Below, piece after piece: positions 32,729-62,813 of a stretch of DNA of 64,000 bases (within the stretch, counting starts at the first letter, position 1; each line of letters begins with the position of its first letter). Under the pieces are notes generated by a model, which saw only the letters and a program-made list of their open reading frames with translations, searched no databases and had not been told where the DNA came from. The position numbers and the translations under genes are program-made. The stretch comes from Geobacter sp. SVR (GTDB lineage Bacteria > Desulfobacterota > Desulfuromonadia > Geobacterales > Pseudopelobacteraceae): NCBI RefSeq assembly GCF_016865365.1, contig NZ_AP024469.1, forward strand, positions 3,068,501-3,132,500, given 5' to 3'.

Positions 32729-34009
32729 TCACCGCTCCGGGAGCCTTTTCACCTTGAGCCGCATTCCCTCCACCCCCTCCACCGTGATCCGGCTGCCCGC
32801 ATCGATCGCCTCGTCGCTCCAGGCATCCCAGTATTCGCCGGTCACGAAAACCTTTCCTCCTGCTCGCGCGATGCCGCTTTCGGCTGTTCCCGCCTGTCCG
32901 ATCAGCCCTTCCCGGCCGGTGACCGGCTGCCGGCGATGAACGCGCAGCGCCTTGGTAATGACGACCACGAAAAATCCGGTCGTGGAAAGCACCGTTACTG
33001 CAATCACGCTCCAGGAGACACGCAGGAAGGGGGCTGACGACTCGAACAGCAGCAGTGAGCCGAGTATCATCGAAACCACCCCGCCTACGGTCAGCATACC
33101 GTGGGATACGACCTTGATCTCTGCCACCAGGAAAACCAGCGCCAGCAGGATCAGCAGAATGCCGGCATAGTTGACCGGCAGCGCCTGAAACGCGAAAAAG
33201 GCCAGGATCAGGCAGATCCCCCCCACCACCCCCGGCAGGATCGCCCCCGGATTGGACAGCTCGAAGAACAGCCCCATCATGCCCAGCATCATCAGGACAT
33301 AGGCTATGTTGGGGTTGCTGATGGCACTCAGGATCCGCTCCGCGCTTCCCATCTCCGCCGTTACCACCTCTGCACCGGCCAGCCGCAGCACTGTATCCTG
33401 CGCTCCGCGCCTGAGGTGCCGTCCGTCCAATTGCTGCAGCAGATCCTTCCTGTCCCGCGCAATCAGGTCGATCACCTTTCCCGCCAGGGCCCGTTCGGCA
33501 CTGACGGAAAGGCTGTCGCGCACCATCTGGCGCGCCAGGGCCTCATCCCGTCCCCGGGTGCGAGCAATTCCCTCTGCGTAGGCCACGGCGTCGTTAACCA
33601 CCTTGGCCTCCATGGTTTTATCGCTCTTTTCTCCCAACGCCACGGGATGAGCTGCACCGATGGTGGTGCCGGGCGCCATGGCGGCAACATCCGCTGCCAG
33701 GGCGATAATCGCTCCGGCCGAGGCGGCCCTGGCTCCGGAAGGGGCCACATACACCACCACCGGGACCGGACTGGCCATGATGTCCCTGACCATCTCCCGC
33801 ATGGCCGTATCGAGCCCCCCCGGGGTATCCATCTCGATCAGCACCAGCCGGTCATGCCGCCGGGCGGCCTCGTTCAGGTTGCGATGCAGGAAGTGGGCGG
33901 TTATGGGCGTGATCGGCGCACTGATCCCGAGCGCCCGTATCCCGGCACCGTCGGCCGGCGCCAGTGTTGCGAACGCAAACAACGCGATGCCCAAAACGAT
34001 CAGACGCAT
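32729..34009 (-). CDS. nfeD: NfeD-family membrane serine protease
   Basis: A 426-residue long-form NfeD: signal peptide, ClpP-like periplasmic protease domain (about 25-220), four to five membrane helices (about 225-360) and a C-terminal OB-fold NfeD domain (GREGLIGQAGTAESGIA...). The nucleophile is Ser97 in SGARAASAGA and the likely general base Lys lies in MEAKVVNDA near residue 136, matching the Ser-Lys dyad of archaeal stomatin-specific proteases. Its expected partner and substrate is the slipin encoded next. Confidence 0.93.
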   Translation of the reverse strand: MRLIVLGIALFAFATLAPADGAGIRALGISAPITPITAHFLHRNLNEAARRHDRLVLIEMDTPGGLDTAMREMVRDIMASPVPVVVYVAPSGARAASAGAIIALAADVAAMAPGTTIGAAHPVALGEKSDKTMEAKVVNDAVAYAEGIARTRGRDEALARQMVRDSLSVSAERALAGKVIDLIARDRKDLLQQLDGRHLRRGAQDTVLRLAGAEVVTAEMGSAERILSAISNPNIAYVLMMLGMMGLFFELSNPGAILPGVVGGICLILAFFAFQALPVNYAGILLILLALVFLVAEIKVVSHGMLTVGGVVSMILGSLLLFESSAPFLRVSWSVIAVTVLSTTGFFVVVITKALRVHRRQPVTGREGLIGQAGTAESGIARAGGKVFVTGEYWDAWSDEAIDAGSRITVEGVEGMRLKVKRLPER

Positions 34010-35388: not shown

Positions 35389-36036
35389 TTACTGATAGGT
35401 GACCTCCAGCAGCGGAGCGAACTGTGGGCGGGCGGCCCCGGTCGTATCGTTGATTTCGATCTCCCCCGGTACGCCGGAATCAGACAGAATGCGGAGCTGA
35501 AAGTCCAGCAGGTTCAGCCGCTGTGCTTCCGTCATCAAGGGGGTCACATCAACGGTTACCGCCTGGTTGAGGTCACCCTGGAAAATATCGATTACGATGC
35601 TGGCCAGCGCCGGCTGGATGGTTCGACTGAAATCAGAGGCCACCAGGGTCGGCGGCTGGAACGCCACCAGATCGATGCGGATCGGAATGGAGCCGGCAAA
35701 CTGCTGCGGCTGAAGGCTGCTGACGAAGAAATCGAGGCGTGAGGATATGATCCGGGCACCACCGGGCACCCCCCCCGCGCCGCTGAGAGGAAAATCGAGA
35801 AAGGCTCTGAATTCCGCCCCAGTTGCCGGATTTATCCCGGCAAACACACTCTGGGTATTGCCCTGGGTGATGGTCAGGTCGCCGGTAACGGCATCCTGCC
35901 TGATATCGCCGTCAAAAGCGGGGTCACTCAGAATCTGGGTAACGATAGTGGGAGGGGCACCGCCGCCGTCATCGCCACAGCCGGCCAGACTGATCATCAG
36001 GAACAGCAGCATCACGACAACCACGGCTCTCTTCAT
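35389..36036 (-). CDS. putative lipoprotein of unknown function
   Basis: A 215-residue protein with a lipoprotein signal (MKRAVVVVMLLFLMISLAGC) and a Gly/Asp-rich start to the mature part. The rest alternates short beta-strand-like segments such as IPIRIDLVAF and TVDVTPLMTEAQRLNLLDFQLRI, reminiscent of beta-sandwich carbohydrate-binding or adhesin-like modules, but no family could be assigned. AGGAGGC precedes the ATG. It is upstream of the csp gene on the same strand but separated by that gene's promoter. Confidence 0.8.
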   Translation of the reverse strand: MKRAVVVVMLLFLMISLAGCGDDGGGAPPTIVTQILSDPAFDGDIRQDAVTGDLTITQGNTQSVFAGINPATGAEFRAFLDFPLSGAGGVPGGARIISSRLDFFVSSLQPQQFAGSIPIRIDLVAFQPPTLVASDFSRTIQPALASIVIDIFQGDLNQAVTVDVTPLMTEAQRLNLLDFQLRILSDSGVPGEIEINDTTGAARPQFAPLLEVTYQ

Positions 36037-36430: not shown

Positions 36431-37102
36431 ATGAAATTAGCATTGATATCGGACATACACTCCAATCTCCATTACCTGGAAAAGATCCTTGCGGCGATCG
36501 GGCGGGAAGGAGTGGACGAAATCTACTGCCTGGGAGACCTGATCGGCTACTATGATCGTCCCCACGACGTGCTGCAGTGCTGCCTGGCGAACGATATCAA
36601 GGCGGTCCGCGGGAACCACGAACATTATCTCATTGGCTCCATAGGCTATGCTCCCGAAAAGGAAGACCTGTACCGGATCAGGGAACAGCGAGAGGAGCTT
36701 GACGGGGAAGACATGGAGTTTCTGAAGGGGCTGCCGGATTTCATGGTAGTGACGCTGATGGGTAAAACCCTCTACCTGACCCATTCCCTGCCGGGCAACT
36801 GTGTCGGCTACCTCAGGGATGTCGGCCAATTGGATACCGGTTTCCTGGCCGGATACGACTATTTCTGCTTCGGCCACACCCACAGGCCGCTCATCAATTA
36901 TCACTTCGGATGCTGCCTCCTGAACCCCGGCTCGGTCGGTCAGCCTCGGGATTATTCCAGGAAGCCATCCTACATCATAGTGGATCTGGAGAAGGACAGC
37001 GTCACGCTGGTCAAGGTCGAAGTGGACTATAAAGCTTACAGCACCATTCTCAGAGAGAGGGGGTACAACGATTTAACACTCCATGCATTGGAAAGGAACT
37101 GA
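36431..37102 (+). CDS. metallophosphoesterase (YfcE/MJ0936-like)
   Basis: A 223-residue calcineurin-like phosphoesterase. Metal-binding motifs are in order: LISDIHSN, CLGDLIGYYDRP, VRGNHEHY, LTHSLPG and FGHTHRP. The length and compact form fit the small phosphodiesterase/phosphatase subgroup; the substrate is unknown. The start at 36431 is preferred because the family N terminus MKLALISDIHSN begins there. The ATP-grasp gene starts one base after its stop, so the two are cotranscribed and probably act on the same pathway. Confidence 0.93.
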   Translation: MKLALISDIHSNLHYLEKILAAIGREGVDEIYCLGDLIGYYDRPHDVLQCCLANDIKAVRGNHEHYLIGSIGYAPEKEDLYRIREQREELDGEDMEFLKGLPDFMVVTLMGKTLYLTHSLPGNCVGYLRDVGQLDTGFLAGYDYFCFGHTHRPLINYHFGCCLLNPGSVGQPRDYSRKPSYIIVDLEKDSVTLVKVEVDYKAYSTILRERGYNDLTLHALERN

Positions 37103-37103
37103 C

Positions 37104-38522
37104 ATGAAAAAGATCAATATATTGGTGACAGGCATTGGTGGCGGCGGTGTTGGGGAACAGGTACTGAAGGCTCTCAGGCTCGCCAAGAACCCGGACTACA
37201 CCATAATAGGCACAGACATCACCGAATACTCCGCCGGGCACAGGTTCGTGGACATCTTCTGCAAAGTGCCGTCGGTATCTGATCCTTCTTATCGTGAGGT
37301 TTTTTTCAGCCTCGTAAACAAGTACAAAATCGATTTTGTCTTCCATGGTTCCGAGCCGGAATTGCAGTTTCTCTCCCAGAACCGCCAGGCGCTCCGCGAA
37401 GAGGGGGTCTATTGCTACATCAATTCCGCCGACCTTATCAGCCTGTGCTCCAACAAGGTCGAAACCTACGAAAAATTGCAGTCGTTCGGATTCAACGTAC
37501 CGAGATTCATGAAGATAGATCGCCTGAGAGACCTGGACGAAATAGACTTCTACCCGATCGTCCTGAAGCCCTACGTCGGGTCCGGCGGCTCATCGAACGT
37601 ATTCATCGCACTGGACCGCAAGGAAGCGCGTCTGCTGGGAAGCTACATGCTCAAATCGGGAATCAGGATCGTGGCGCAGGAATACCTGTCGACCCACGAA
37701 AACGAGTACACGATCGGCATAAGCTCGGATGAGCTGGGCAACGTCCTCGGAAGCATCGTGATCAAGAAGATGATCGGGAATGCCATGTCGACGCGGCTGA
37801 AGGTCAAAAGCAATGATTCGCTCTACGTGATCTCCTCCGGATTTTCCCAGGGGGAAGTGTGTCACATGGCTGACCTGCAGAAACAGGCCGAGAACATGGC
37901 CCTGGCACTGAAGTCGAAGGGGCCGCTGAATGTTCAGGGAAGGGTGGTCGACGGCCAGCTGATGCTGATGGAAATCAACCCCAGAACCTCGGGCACCACC
38001 TCTTTGCGAGCCATGGCCGGCTACAATGAACCGGACATGGTCATCAAGTATTACGCCAACAATGAAAAGTGGGATACGAACTACGAAGACATGGTCATTT
38101 TAAGAGGCCTGGAGGAGTACGCCCACAAGGGATGGCAACTGGCGGTCCAGCCTTTTGCCGGCATGGACGCCACCATCGGGATTGATCCGCTGATCGCCGG
38201 CCTTGCGCCGGATATGGTTCAGCCCTCGCCGCTGCCCCTGGAAACGGCAGTCAGAATCGACCCGATCATTGCCAACGTTCTGGAGCCGGCAACCGTCAGA
38301 GTGGATCCGATTCTCGCCACTCCCCTGGAAACATCGGTTGCCGTTACCGCCCTTGATACGGTGCTTGCCACGACCCTGGAGACGTCTTCCGTGGGGATCG
38401 ACACGGCGCTGGCCGCGACCATGGAACCGGCTGCTGCCGGAATGGAGCCGATTCTCGCAATCGGGTCCACTGCAAACCGGACGGACCTTGCAGTCCTGGA
38501 GCGGATGCCGGTCGAAAACTGA
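37104..38522 (+). CDS. ATP-grasp ligase with C-terminal D-x7-E repeat array
   Basis: A 472-residue protein. Residues 1-340 are an ATP-grasp enzyme of the CarB/PylC-like type: N-terminal Rossmann-like ILVTGIGGGGVGEQ, SNKVETYEKLQSFG, glycine-rich loop YPIVLKPYVGSGGSSNV, the EYLSTHENEYTIGI strand and metal-binding MEINPRTSGT. Residues 355-455 are not part of the enzyme fold but five imperfect 15-17-residue repeats of the form V-x-[IV]-D-[PT]-x-[IL]-A-x-x-[LM]-E-[PT], Thr/Ser-rich with regularly spaced acids. Such enzymes join carboxylates to amines or hydroxyls; an enzyme fused to its own repeat substrate, as a graspetide-like system, is possible but unproven. GGAAAGGA precedes the ATG. Confidence 0.9.
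   Translation: MKKINILVTGIGGGGVGEQVLKALRLAKNPDYTIIGTDITEYSAGHRFVDIFCKVPSVSDPSYREVFFSLVNKYKIDFVFHGSEPELQFLSQNRQALREEGVYCYINSADLISLCSNKVETYEKLQSFGFNVPRFMKIDRLRDLDEIDFYPIVLKPYVGSGGSSNVFIALDRKEARLLGSYMLKSGIRIVAQEYLSTHENEYTIGISSDELGNVLGSIVIKKMIGNAMSTRLKVKSNDSLYVISSGFSQGEVCHMADLQKQAENMALALKSKGPLNVQGRVVDGQLMLMEINPRTSGTTSLRAMAGYNEPDMVIKYYANNEKWDTNYEDMVILRGLEEYAHKGWQLAVQPFAGMDATIGIDPLIAGLAPDMVQPSPLPLETAVRIDPIIANVLEPATVRVDPILATPLETSVAVTALDTVLATTLETSSVGIDTALAATMEPAAAGMEPILAIGSTANRTDLAVLERMPVEN
38166..38467 (+). repeat. coding tandem repeats of the ATP-grasp protein
   Basis: Degenerate repeats of 45-51 bases encoding D-x7-E units. Neighbouring units keep nucleotide similarity (for example GTCAGAATCGACCCGATC and GTCAGAGTGGATCCGATT), indicating expansion by duplication followed by drift. 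Four successive units keep exactly seven residues between Asp and Glu. Confidence 0.75.
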
Positions 38523-38544
38523 CCGAGGCAGAAAACAAGGACGC

Positions 38545-38576
38545 AAAAAGGCCCGGAAGATACTCTTCCGGGCCTT
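38545..38576 (-). terminator. terminator of the 6S-like RNA
   Basis: Near-perfect 13-bp stem (AAGGCCCGGAAGA and TCTTCCGGGCCTT) with a 3-base loop, followed on the minus strand by TTTTT. In the other direction it can end the ATP-grasp transcript. Confidence 0.85.
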
Positions 38577-38778
38577 GATGTTCTGGTGGTACTTTCACGG
38601 CGCTTTTTTCTTATCCGTCGGTCTCAACCCGGGCAGTCGTCCCTGCTGCGCTCTTTGCGGGACCGCAGCAATTTCGCTTCCCCGGGGTTCAACCTTTTTG
38701 AAGAGGTCGAAACGCTCAGGCGGATGAAGCATGCACAGCATGTCAGGCGTTACCGAAGTACCACCATGCCGTTTCCTT
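38545..38778 (-). ncRNA. ssrS: probable 6S RNA
   Basis: A minus-strand RNA with its own promoter and terminator and no reading frame. The ends of a 183-base core (38584-38766) pair through GGTGGTACTT and AAGTACCACC, extended by CGG/CCG and CGC/GCG after a small bulge and later by ATCCG/CGGAT. An apical rod is formed by AACCCCGGG/CCCGGGTT and TGCTGCG/CGCAGCA. This long, mostly double-stranded rod with a central open region containing CCTGAGC, and a core size close to that of E. coli 6S RNA (184), fits 6S RNA, which binds RNA polymerase-sigma-70. No sequence-level proof was possible, so another structured RNA is not excluded. Confidence 0.55.
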
Positions 38779-61468: not shown

Positions 61469-61822
61469 TGGTGGAGGTGGTGGGAGTCGAACCCACGTCC
61501 GAAGAACCTACAGTCTGAATTACTACACCGTTAGTCAATTGCTCGATTTAACCGGCCTGCTGCACAATTGACAAAGCAGCAGACCAGCGGTCCCGTTAAA
61601 TTTCAGGGTGCGCTACGGGCGTTGCGCATCCCAATCCGGTAGTGAATGACGTCCCCGTTGTACCACCGGCATCTTCATTGGGGACGCCTGTTAAGCAGCT
61701 AGTGCAACAGGTGTGTAATAATTGTCGGCAATTAAGCCGTTGCAGGTTTATTAAGGTCGGCCACCTGCCCCGACCCGGTGCAACCCAGATTTTCACTTCC
61801 CCGTCGAAACCTTTACACCCCC
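61469..61822 (-). ncRNA. ssrA: transfer-messenger RNA
   Basis: A 354-base tmRNA that rescues stalled ribosomes with SmpB. On the minus strand it starts GGGGGTGTAAAGGTTTCGAC and ends GTGGGTTCGACTCCCACCACC...CCA, with the acceptor arm GGGGGTG pairing to CACCTCC (one G-U). The tag frame (61691-61729) begins at GCC and encodes ADNYYTPVALAA before TAA, with the ALAA degradation end. CCA is encoded. smpB lies just upstream on the same strand. Confidence 0.96.
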
Positions 61823-62599: not shown

Positions 62600-62629
62600 C
62601 AAGGGTCCCAAACACGTTTTACCACATAT

Positions 62630-62786
62630 AATTCCTCGTTAGCATGAGGCGTTTGCACAAACACAGGCTACTGCCCAGAAACGTCGAAAGACGCCAATGC
62701 GGTCCAACAGGTTTTGTCGGCTTAAGGCTTAACCCAATGTAGCTGGTTCACTATCCTACGTTGTGCACTGCCGAAAATCTACCAGG
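62630..62786 (+). promoter_or_regulatory. M-box (ykoK) magnesium riboswitch
   Basis: The conserved core is present in order: CTCGTTAGCATGAGG, ACAGGCTACTGCCCAGAAA, CGTCGAAAGACGCCAATG, AACAGG, GGCTTAA, CCAATGTAGCTGGTTCA and CTACGTTGTGC. This is the Mg2+-sensing M-box. It stands before an MgtE-type transporter and is followed by an intrinsic terminator, so high Mg2+ should favour termination and switch the gene off. Confidence 0.95.
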
Positions 62787-62813
62787 GGGGAAGCGGTGTC
62801 CTTGCGTATTTTT

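Follow-up and report, generated by a model that had tools for sequence, protein, structure and literature searches.

A pair of adjacent genes at positions 36431-38522 of a 64,000-nucleotide stretch of Geobacter sp. SVR DNA (contig NZ_AP024469.1; this whole stretch is called the window) is probably a displaced ligase/phosphatase module of surface-glycan or sugar-precursor biosynthesis, in which the ligase has gained a C-terminal tail that would act as a tether or modulator rather than as a substrate. ATP-grasp enzymes activate carboxylates as acyl phosphates. The ligase of the pair would do so with its own substrate and couple the activated group to a small glycan precursor, through an amine or hydroxyl of the latter, and the metallophosphoesterase encoded next to it would take a phosphate off the same substrate or product, before or after ligation. 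The tail, about 130 C-terminal residues with six degenerate units that mostly lie 15-17 residues apart, appears to have been added in this lineage. It may bind a partner, a membrane or the substrate, or it may tune the activity of the enzyme.

The ligase family is widespread yet little studied, and the repeat-tailed form is a variant seen, among the members examined, in this genome alone. Open-access papers appear to know the family under its curated name only: the product name occurs in one of them, and ATP-grasp, metallophosphoesterase, polysaccharide and gene cluster occur together in none.

The gene pair and the catalytic part of the ligase

The upstream gene of the pair (36431-37102, plus strand) encodes a calcineurin-like metallophosphoesterase of 223 aa. 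The protein is YfcE-like, matches Metallophos_2 (PF12850, E 2.7e-27) and scores 61.1 bits with TIGR00040, for which the cutoff is 56.25. A single base separates its stop codon from the ATG of the ligase gene (37104-38522, plus strand; 472 aa). The first-pass annotation had described an intact ATP-grasp domain in this second gene, and the description holds: the reading frame is open over all 472 codons, and the domain occupies residues 1-340 (37104-38123, plus strand), which is about the whole length of the related proteins. Pfam places a PylC-like N domain (PF21360) at residues 17-103 and ATP-grasp matches at 115-298 and 251-323. The ligase belongs to NCBIfam family NF009402 (PRK12767.1-1, carbamoyl phosphate synthase-like protein, CarB/PylC-like), scoring 354.9 bits where the cutoff is 218; residues 3-339 align with positions 2-321 of the 329 in the model. 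K155, P156, E290, I291, N292, P293 and R294 are invariant in the alignment of the window protein with 25 relatives (26/26), and we take these columns to be ATP-grasp site residues.

The predicted structure of the catalytic part reaches pLDDT 87-98 in most 10-residue blocks, with four blocks at 74-82. Its nearest solved fold is 2pn1, the carbamoylphosphate synthase large subunit-like protein of Exiguobacterium (Z 28.8, rmsd 2.4, 284 residues aligned within residues 1-337). The likeness to 2pn1 is one of fold, whereas sequence identity is 20% and 2pn1 has no tail. Biotin carboxylases are matched at Z 27.5 and PylC (4ffr, 4ffl) at Z 27.1 and 26.7, the former value with rmsd 2.7 over 288 aligned residues. 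Together with the NF009402 score, these fold matches support the CarB/PylC-like character that had been proposed for the enzyme half. PylC has both the N domain PF21360 and the fold in common with the window ligase, but the ligase has no match to the PylC model TIGR03909 at E <=1. That model is matched by 7 of the 26 family members at E <=0.001, and NF009402 is matched by all 26 aligned proteins at the same value, an E threshold and not the curated cutoff. No graspetide model is found among the 16 NCBIfam families that the ligase matches at E <=1, in a library that presumably includes graspetide models. With rimK_fam the ligase scores 37.4 bits against a cutoff of 143.4.

Relatives of the ligase and their gene neighbourhoods

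Relatives were collected with a three-sequence profile and two short peptide patterns from one genome per species (84,980 species). This gave 25 loci, a set from which the two-peptide-pattern search leaves out other relatives. All 25 share the catalytic part with the window ligase at 37-58% identity, the nearest being that of an Arcobacter MAG (58%). Seven are from Bradyrhizobium and are not independent of one another, L060 and L033 are one plasmid, and L063 is apparently the same record as G387 (L035). In addition, 395 genomes of the phylum were scanned with NF009402 at E <=1e-30, at most five candidates being scored per genome, and 31 matches were obtained in 29 genomes, the window's included. 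For 28 of the 30 matches other than the window's, the open frame measures 301-381 aa. The open frame in G387 is 436 aa long (gene, 371 aa), and that in G280 reaches 550 aa because a NeuD/PglD-type sugar acetyltransferase is fused at the C-terminus. The ATP-grasp part of the G280 protein is matched better by the sister model NF009405 than by NF009402, yet it falls below the NF009405 cutoff. This PRK12767-type fusion lies at L102:1379-3004 (minus strand), with a HAD phosphatase adjoining. At E 1e-30 the full-length ligase is found in the window's genome alone among 277 genomes of the class. No match was obtained when genome contigs were scanned with the single ligase protein, when viral contigs were searched with the ligase profile, or when phages were searched with the ligase.

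The coupling of the ATP-grasp enzyme to a phosphoesterase, first proposed from this one pair, recurs among the relatives. A phosphoesterase homologue lies directly upstream of the ligase in 22 of the 25 loci, with the ligase start at -15 to +18 bases from the phosphoesterase stop. At L056 the homologue is 2 kb away, and at L043 and L045 none was found at the locus. None of the 25 relatives has the tail, and the pairing is equally strong without it. In the phylum scan the phosphatase check covered nine of the 30 non-window matches, and G280. A phosphoesterase lies within two genes of the ligase at each of the nine loci. Six of these enzymes are calcineurin-like (L096, L097, L099, L100, L101 and, through L063/L035, L095), two are of the PHP type (L093, L094) and one is of the HAD type (L098). 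A PHP phosphatase also adjoins the Sinorhizobium relative, as a HAD enzyme does the G280 relative. In some distant members, therefore, the usual partner is swapped for an unrelated PHP (L093, L094, L034) or HAD (L098, L102) phosphatase. The swaps hint at a requirement for the phosphatase step. Because the partner has been replaced by unrelated phosphatases, we infer that ligation shares a pathway with dephosphorylation. Three unrelated phosphatase folds are found paired with this kind of ligase, a hint that the two reactions are successive steps in the synthesis of one glycan precursor. At a Desulfovibrionaceae locus (L035:8232-10525) the phosphoesterase/ATP-grasp pair is followed by an overlapping gene that looks radical-SAM-like by eye.

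To describe the neighbourhoods, genes within 8 kb of the ligase were clustered into single-linkage BLAST groups, which take their names from Pfam matches at a single locus, L042. By this grouping a DegT aminotransferase is present at 23 of the 25 loci, a methyltransferase at 20, an epimerase at 19 and AsnB at 16. L042, from Arcobacter, also has flippase-like and glycosyltransferase-like genes by eye, and a pseudaminate synthase gene adjoins the pair in L099 and L100. L045 is an exception, with neighbours that by eye are transporter-like and not glycan genes. In most relatives the ligase gene is surrounded by genes of glycan type. The window pair has the whole catalytic part, the ATP-grasp motifs and the metallophosphoesterase pairing in common with the NF009402 family, but it differs from the 25 aligned relatives in its tail and from most of them in its surroundings. 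It is flanked by genes that by eye are lipoprotein-like, DHFR-like and elongation factor G-like, not by a glycan cluster, and inspection by eye of the open reading frames at 20-43 kb revealed no aminotransferase, AsnB, epimerase or methyltransferase. When the cassette methyltransferase was sought in the whole genome, the best match was 24% identical, and for this reason the small-molecule substrate of the ligase is not obvious.

The lipoprotein-like gene (35389-36036, minus strand) has counterparts of about 61% identity in G052 and G056, so that one neighbour of the pair occurs in related genomes as well. The local G+C content (50%, against about 60%) and the lack of a relative at E 1e-30 in the other 276 genomes of the class raised the possibility that the pair is of recent foreign origin. 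The pair is not called a recent arrival, since the codon adaptation index (CAI) of the catalytic domain, 0.643, lies close to the mean for the host (0.69).

The repeat tail and its possible roles

Residues 341-472 of the ligase (38124-38519, plus strand) form the repeat-bearing tail, which is predicted to be disordered. In the alignment all 25 relatives end 3-26 residues past the Glu338 column, where the window protein has 134 residues. The first-pass annotation had raised the question whether the repeats go with this type of ATP-grasp enzyme. Among the aligned proteins they do not, the tail being absent from all 25 relatives, the nearest of which is 58% identical; absence from close orthologues was among the observations that the annotation had named as speaking against its proposal. 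Searches with the tail itself gave a similar picture. In its own genome only two other matches were obtained (E about 0.08), both with stops inside. Among 141 genomes of the order there was no credible relative, and among the 395 phylum genomes there were three weak matches (E 0.0006-0.008), all with stops inside the match. Plasmids and phages gave nothing at E <=0.1, viral contigs searched with peptide patterns no credible match, PDB sequences and Pfam nothing at E <=10, and PHROGs nothing at E <=1. On these comparisons the tail appears to be a lineage-specific gain by the ligase, shared by no relative examined. A sequence error or frameshift was also considered as its source and is not likely: the frame is unbroken from the conserved end of the domain onward, and its codons are host-like.

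Six units can be aligned in the tail, all on the plus strand. Unit 0 (IGIDPLIAGLAPDM, 38175-38216) is followed by four units with D-x7-E, namely unit 1 (VRIDPIIANVLEPA, 38250-38291), unit 2 (VRVDPILATPLETS, 38295-38336), unit 3 (TALDTVLATTLETS, 38346-38387) and unit 4 (VGIDTALAATMEPA, 38391-38432), and by unit 5 (AGMEPILAIGSTAN, 38436-38477), which has Glu for Asp and lacks x7-E. Their acidic anchors (Asp/Glu) are residues 361, 386, 401, 418, 433 and 448, at spacings of 25, 15, 17, 15 and 15. The motif [DE]-[PT]-x-[IL]-A is present in all six degenerate units and D-x7-E in four of them. The initial description of five degenerate repeats, four of them with D-x7-E, was therefore correct as to the repeats and the four D-x7-E motifs, but there is a further degenerate unit upstream, at 361, and the unit at 448 departs from the pattern. 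Four D-x7-E motifs in residues 341-472 are reached by 4 of 10,000 shuffles. Aligned at their best, the six units score 339, whereas shuffled sequences average 111 (sd 18) and peak at 179, none of 500 reaching 339, and the self-alignment score of the tail is 105, against a maximum of 64 among 300 shuffles. As a control, three blocks of the catalytic domain showed no excess self-similarity (56, 7 and 40 of 60 shuffles reach them). A BLOSUM autocorrelation over lags 8-39 gave a weaker signal, the maximum for the tail being reached by 39 of 1,000 shuffles. The repetition of the tail is thus real and far above chance. The coding DNA had also been called repetitive, which it is weakly: one 37-nt pair is 78% identical, and Tandem Repeats Finder reports no tandem array inside the ligase gene at score 30.

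The reading frame of the tail bears the marks of coding sequence. Its CAI in frame is 0.566, against means of 0.33 and 0.38 under two random-codon models, and all 1,000 draws of each model are lower. For the host the value is low, being matched or undercut by 1.4% of host windows and by 1.8% of host-codon copies. Between units 1-4 pN/pS is 0.62, a value as low as which arises in 0.1-3.5% of neutral simulations, depending on the assumed divergence. The units themselves may therefore be under selection, something not expected of a plain linker; the test is biased and the ratio only suggestive, as the units were chosen for their likeness. In the predicted structure pLDDT is below 50 from residue 345 on, as is to be expected for any orphan sequence, and the tail contains no strands. 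Folded alone, the tail gave one model of five with pLDDT 50 (pTM 0.15, helices in the last half), the other four lying at 26-30. We consider it probable that the tail is translated and, taken alone, unfolded. The units were also considered as amphipathic helices, a reading not pursued because their hydrophobic moments are modest and uneven (0.15-0.45). The hexapeptide repeats of the G280 relative suggested a left-handed beta-helix, which was set aside because the spacing of the tail is mostly 15-17 rather than 18 and the model has no strands there.

The first-pass annotation suggested that the repeats may be a substrate built into the enzyme, with the phosphoesterase acting on the same product. 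In such a case the ligase would form graspetide-like links between Asp/Glu and Thr/Ser side chains of its own repeats, as a borosin-like fusion of enzyme and core. The D-x7-E spacing kept in four units, the stronger conservation of the units at protein than at synonymous sites (a comparison biased by the choice of units) and the ability of ATP-grasp enzymes to activate carboxylates all speak for such a substrate. The ATP-grasp fold is common to graspetide synthetases, and the acidic, Thr/Ser-containing repeats recall multi-core graspetide precursors (PMC8939145). Borosins provide a known case of a modifying enzyme that carries its core fused at the C-terminus (PMC7878506); the window ligase would resemble them in architecture only. 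Against this stand the relatives, none of which has the tail and 22 of which keep the phosphoesterase partner, the NCBIfam matches of the ligase, which include no graspetide family, and the glycan-type context of most family members. Acceptor positions are not conserved either: the same Ser/Thr offset is common to at most two of the six units, unit 0 has no Ser/Thr in the stretch counted, and the sole Lys of residues 341-472 precedes the repeats. Inspection by eye of open reading frames of at least 80 aa at 33-43 kb revealed no RiPP-type precursor, protease or transporter; a gene that looks NfeD-protease-like by eye lies at 32729-34009. With a built-in substrate, the enzyme would also have had to switch to another class of substrate in this lineage alone. 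The tail as the enzyme's own substrate is thus not favoured by the evidence, and we regard graspetide-type ligation of the repeats as very unlikely. Hardly any weight is given to a ligase that, freed from the glycan pathway, cross-links or conjugates acidic residues of its own tail as a self-modifying class outside the graspetides; the phosphoesterase acting on the same product is part of that proposal, and the two are judged jointly and just as improbable.

Alternatively, the tail could be a functionless or near-neutral extension that arose when the original stop codon was lost and in which short repeats grew later. The tail starts close to the stop of the 25 aligned relatives, has no credible relatives in the collections searched and is predicted to be unfolded, all of which would fit such an origin. 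This explanation is nevertheless unlikely, if far from negligible, in view of an in-frame codon adaptation far above random, the protein similarity kept between units whose synonymous sites have strongly diverged, and about 130 codons without a stop. The regularity of the six-unit pattern could instead reflect a domain captured from another protein family outside the collections searched, and relatives do fuse C-terminal partners, the NeuD-type sugar acetyltransferase of G280 being an example. The searches of Pfam, PHROGs, PDB sequences and plasmids and phages found no such source at the thresholds given above, and the three phylum matches are all interrupted by stops; capture is accordingly thought a rather improbable origin.

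Relatives manage without the tail, and for this reason its most likely role is an accessory one (tether, binding array or modulator) and not that of the thing modified. A possible precedent, by analogy, is the polysialate O-acetyltransferase NeuO, a glycan-modifying enzyme with a presumably unfolded repeat extension. This extension (the poly-psi domain) is unresolved in the structure and dispensable for activity, and activity rises with repeat number (PMC3046976). The repeats of NeuO are N-terminal heptads with two basic residues, encoded by perfect DNA repeats (PMC3046976), whereas the tail of the window ligase is C-terminal, acidic and degenerate, has no array at the DNA level and belongs to an unrelated enzyme. 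The tail amounts to a natural experiment, in which the same kind of enzyme occurs with and without a repeat extension.

Known and likely structured RNAs in the window

Beyond the ligase gene lies an inverted repeat (38548-38576) with 13-bp arms, 100% complementary and separated by 3 nt, which could end both the two-gene unit and an RNA on the opposite strand. The latter, at 38544-38770 (minus strand), has a fold energy of -97.2 kcal/mol (z -5.0), which none of 200 shuffles attains, and is likely an unnamed structured RNA. Against Rfam no match was found at gathering score, and below it nothing convincing. At E 1e-6 it is matched in 5 of 138 genomes of the order, the window's included. Two of these matches are partial, that in G014 covering the terminator only and that in G469 the first 90 bases only. 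In an alignment of four sequences, with G469 extended by hand, 13 of the 56 predicted pairs keep pairing through two-sided changes in at least one sequence. Elsewhere in the window, a tmRNA gene lies at 61469-61822 (minus strand) and an M-box magnesium riboswitch at 62628-62796 (plus strand).
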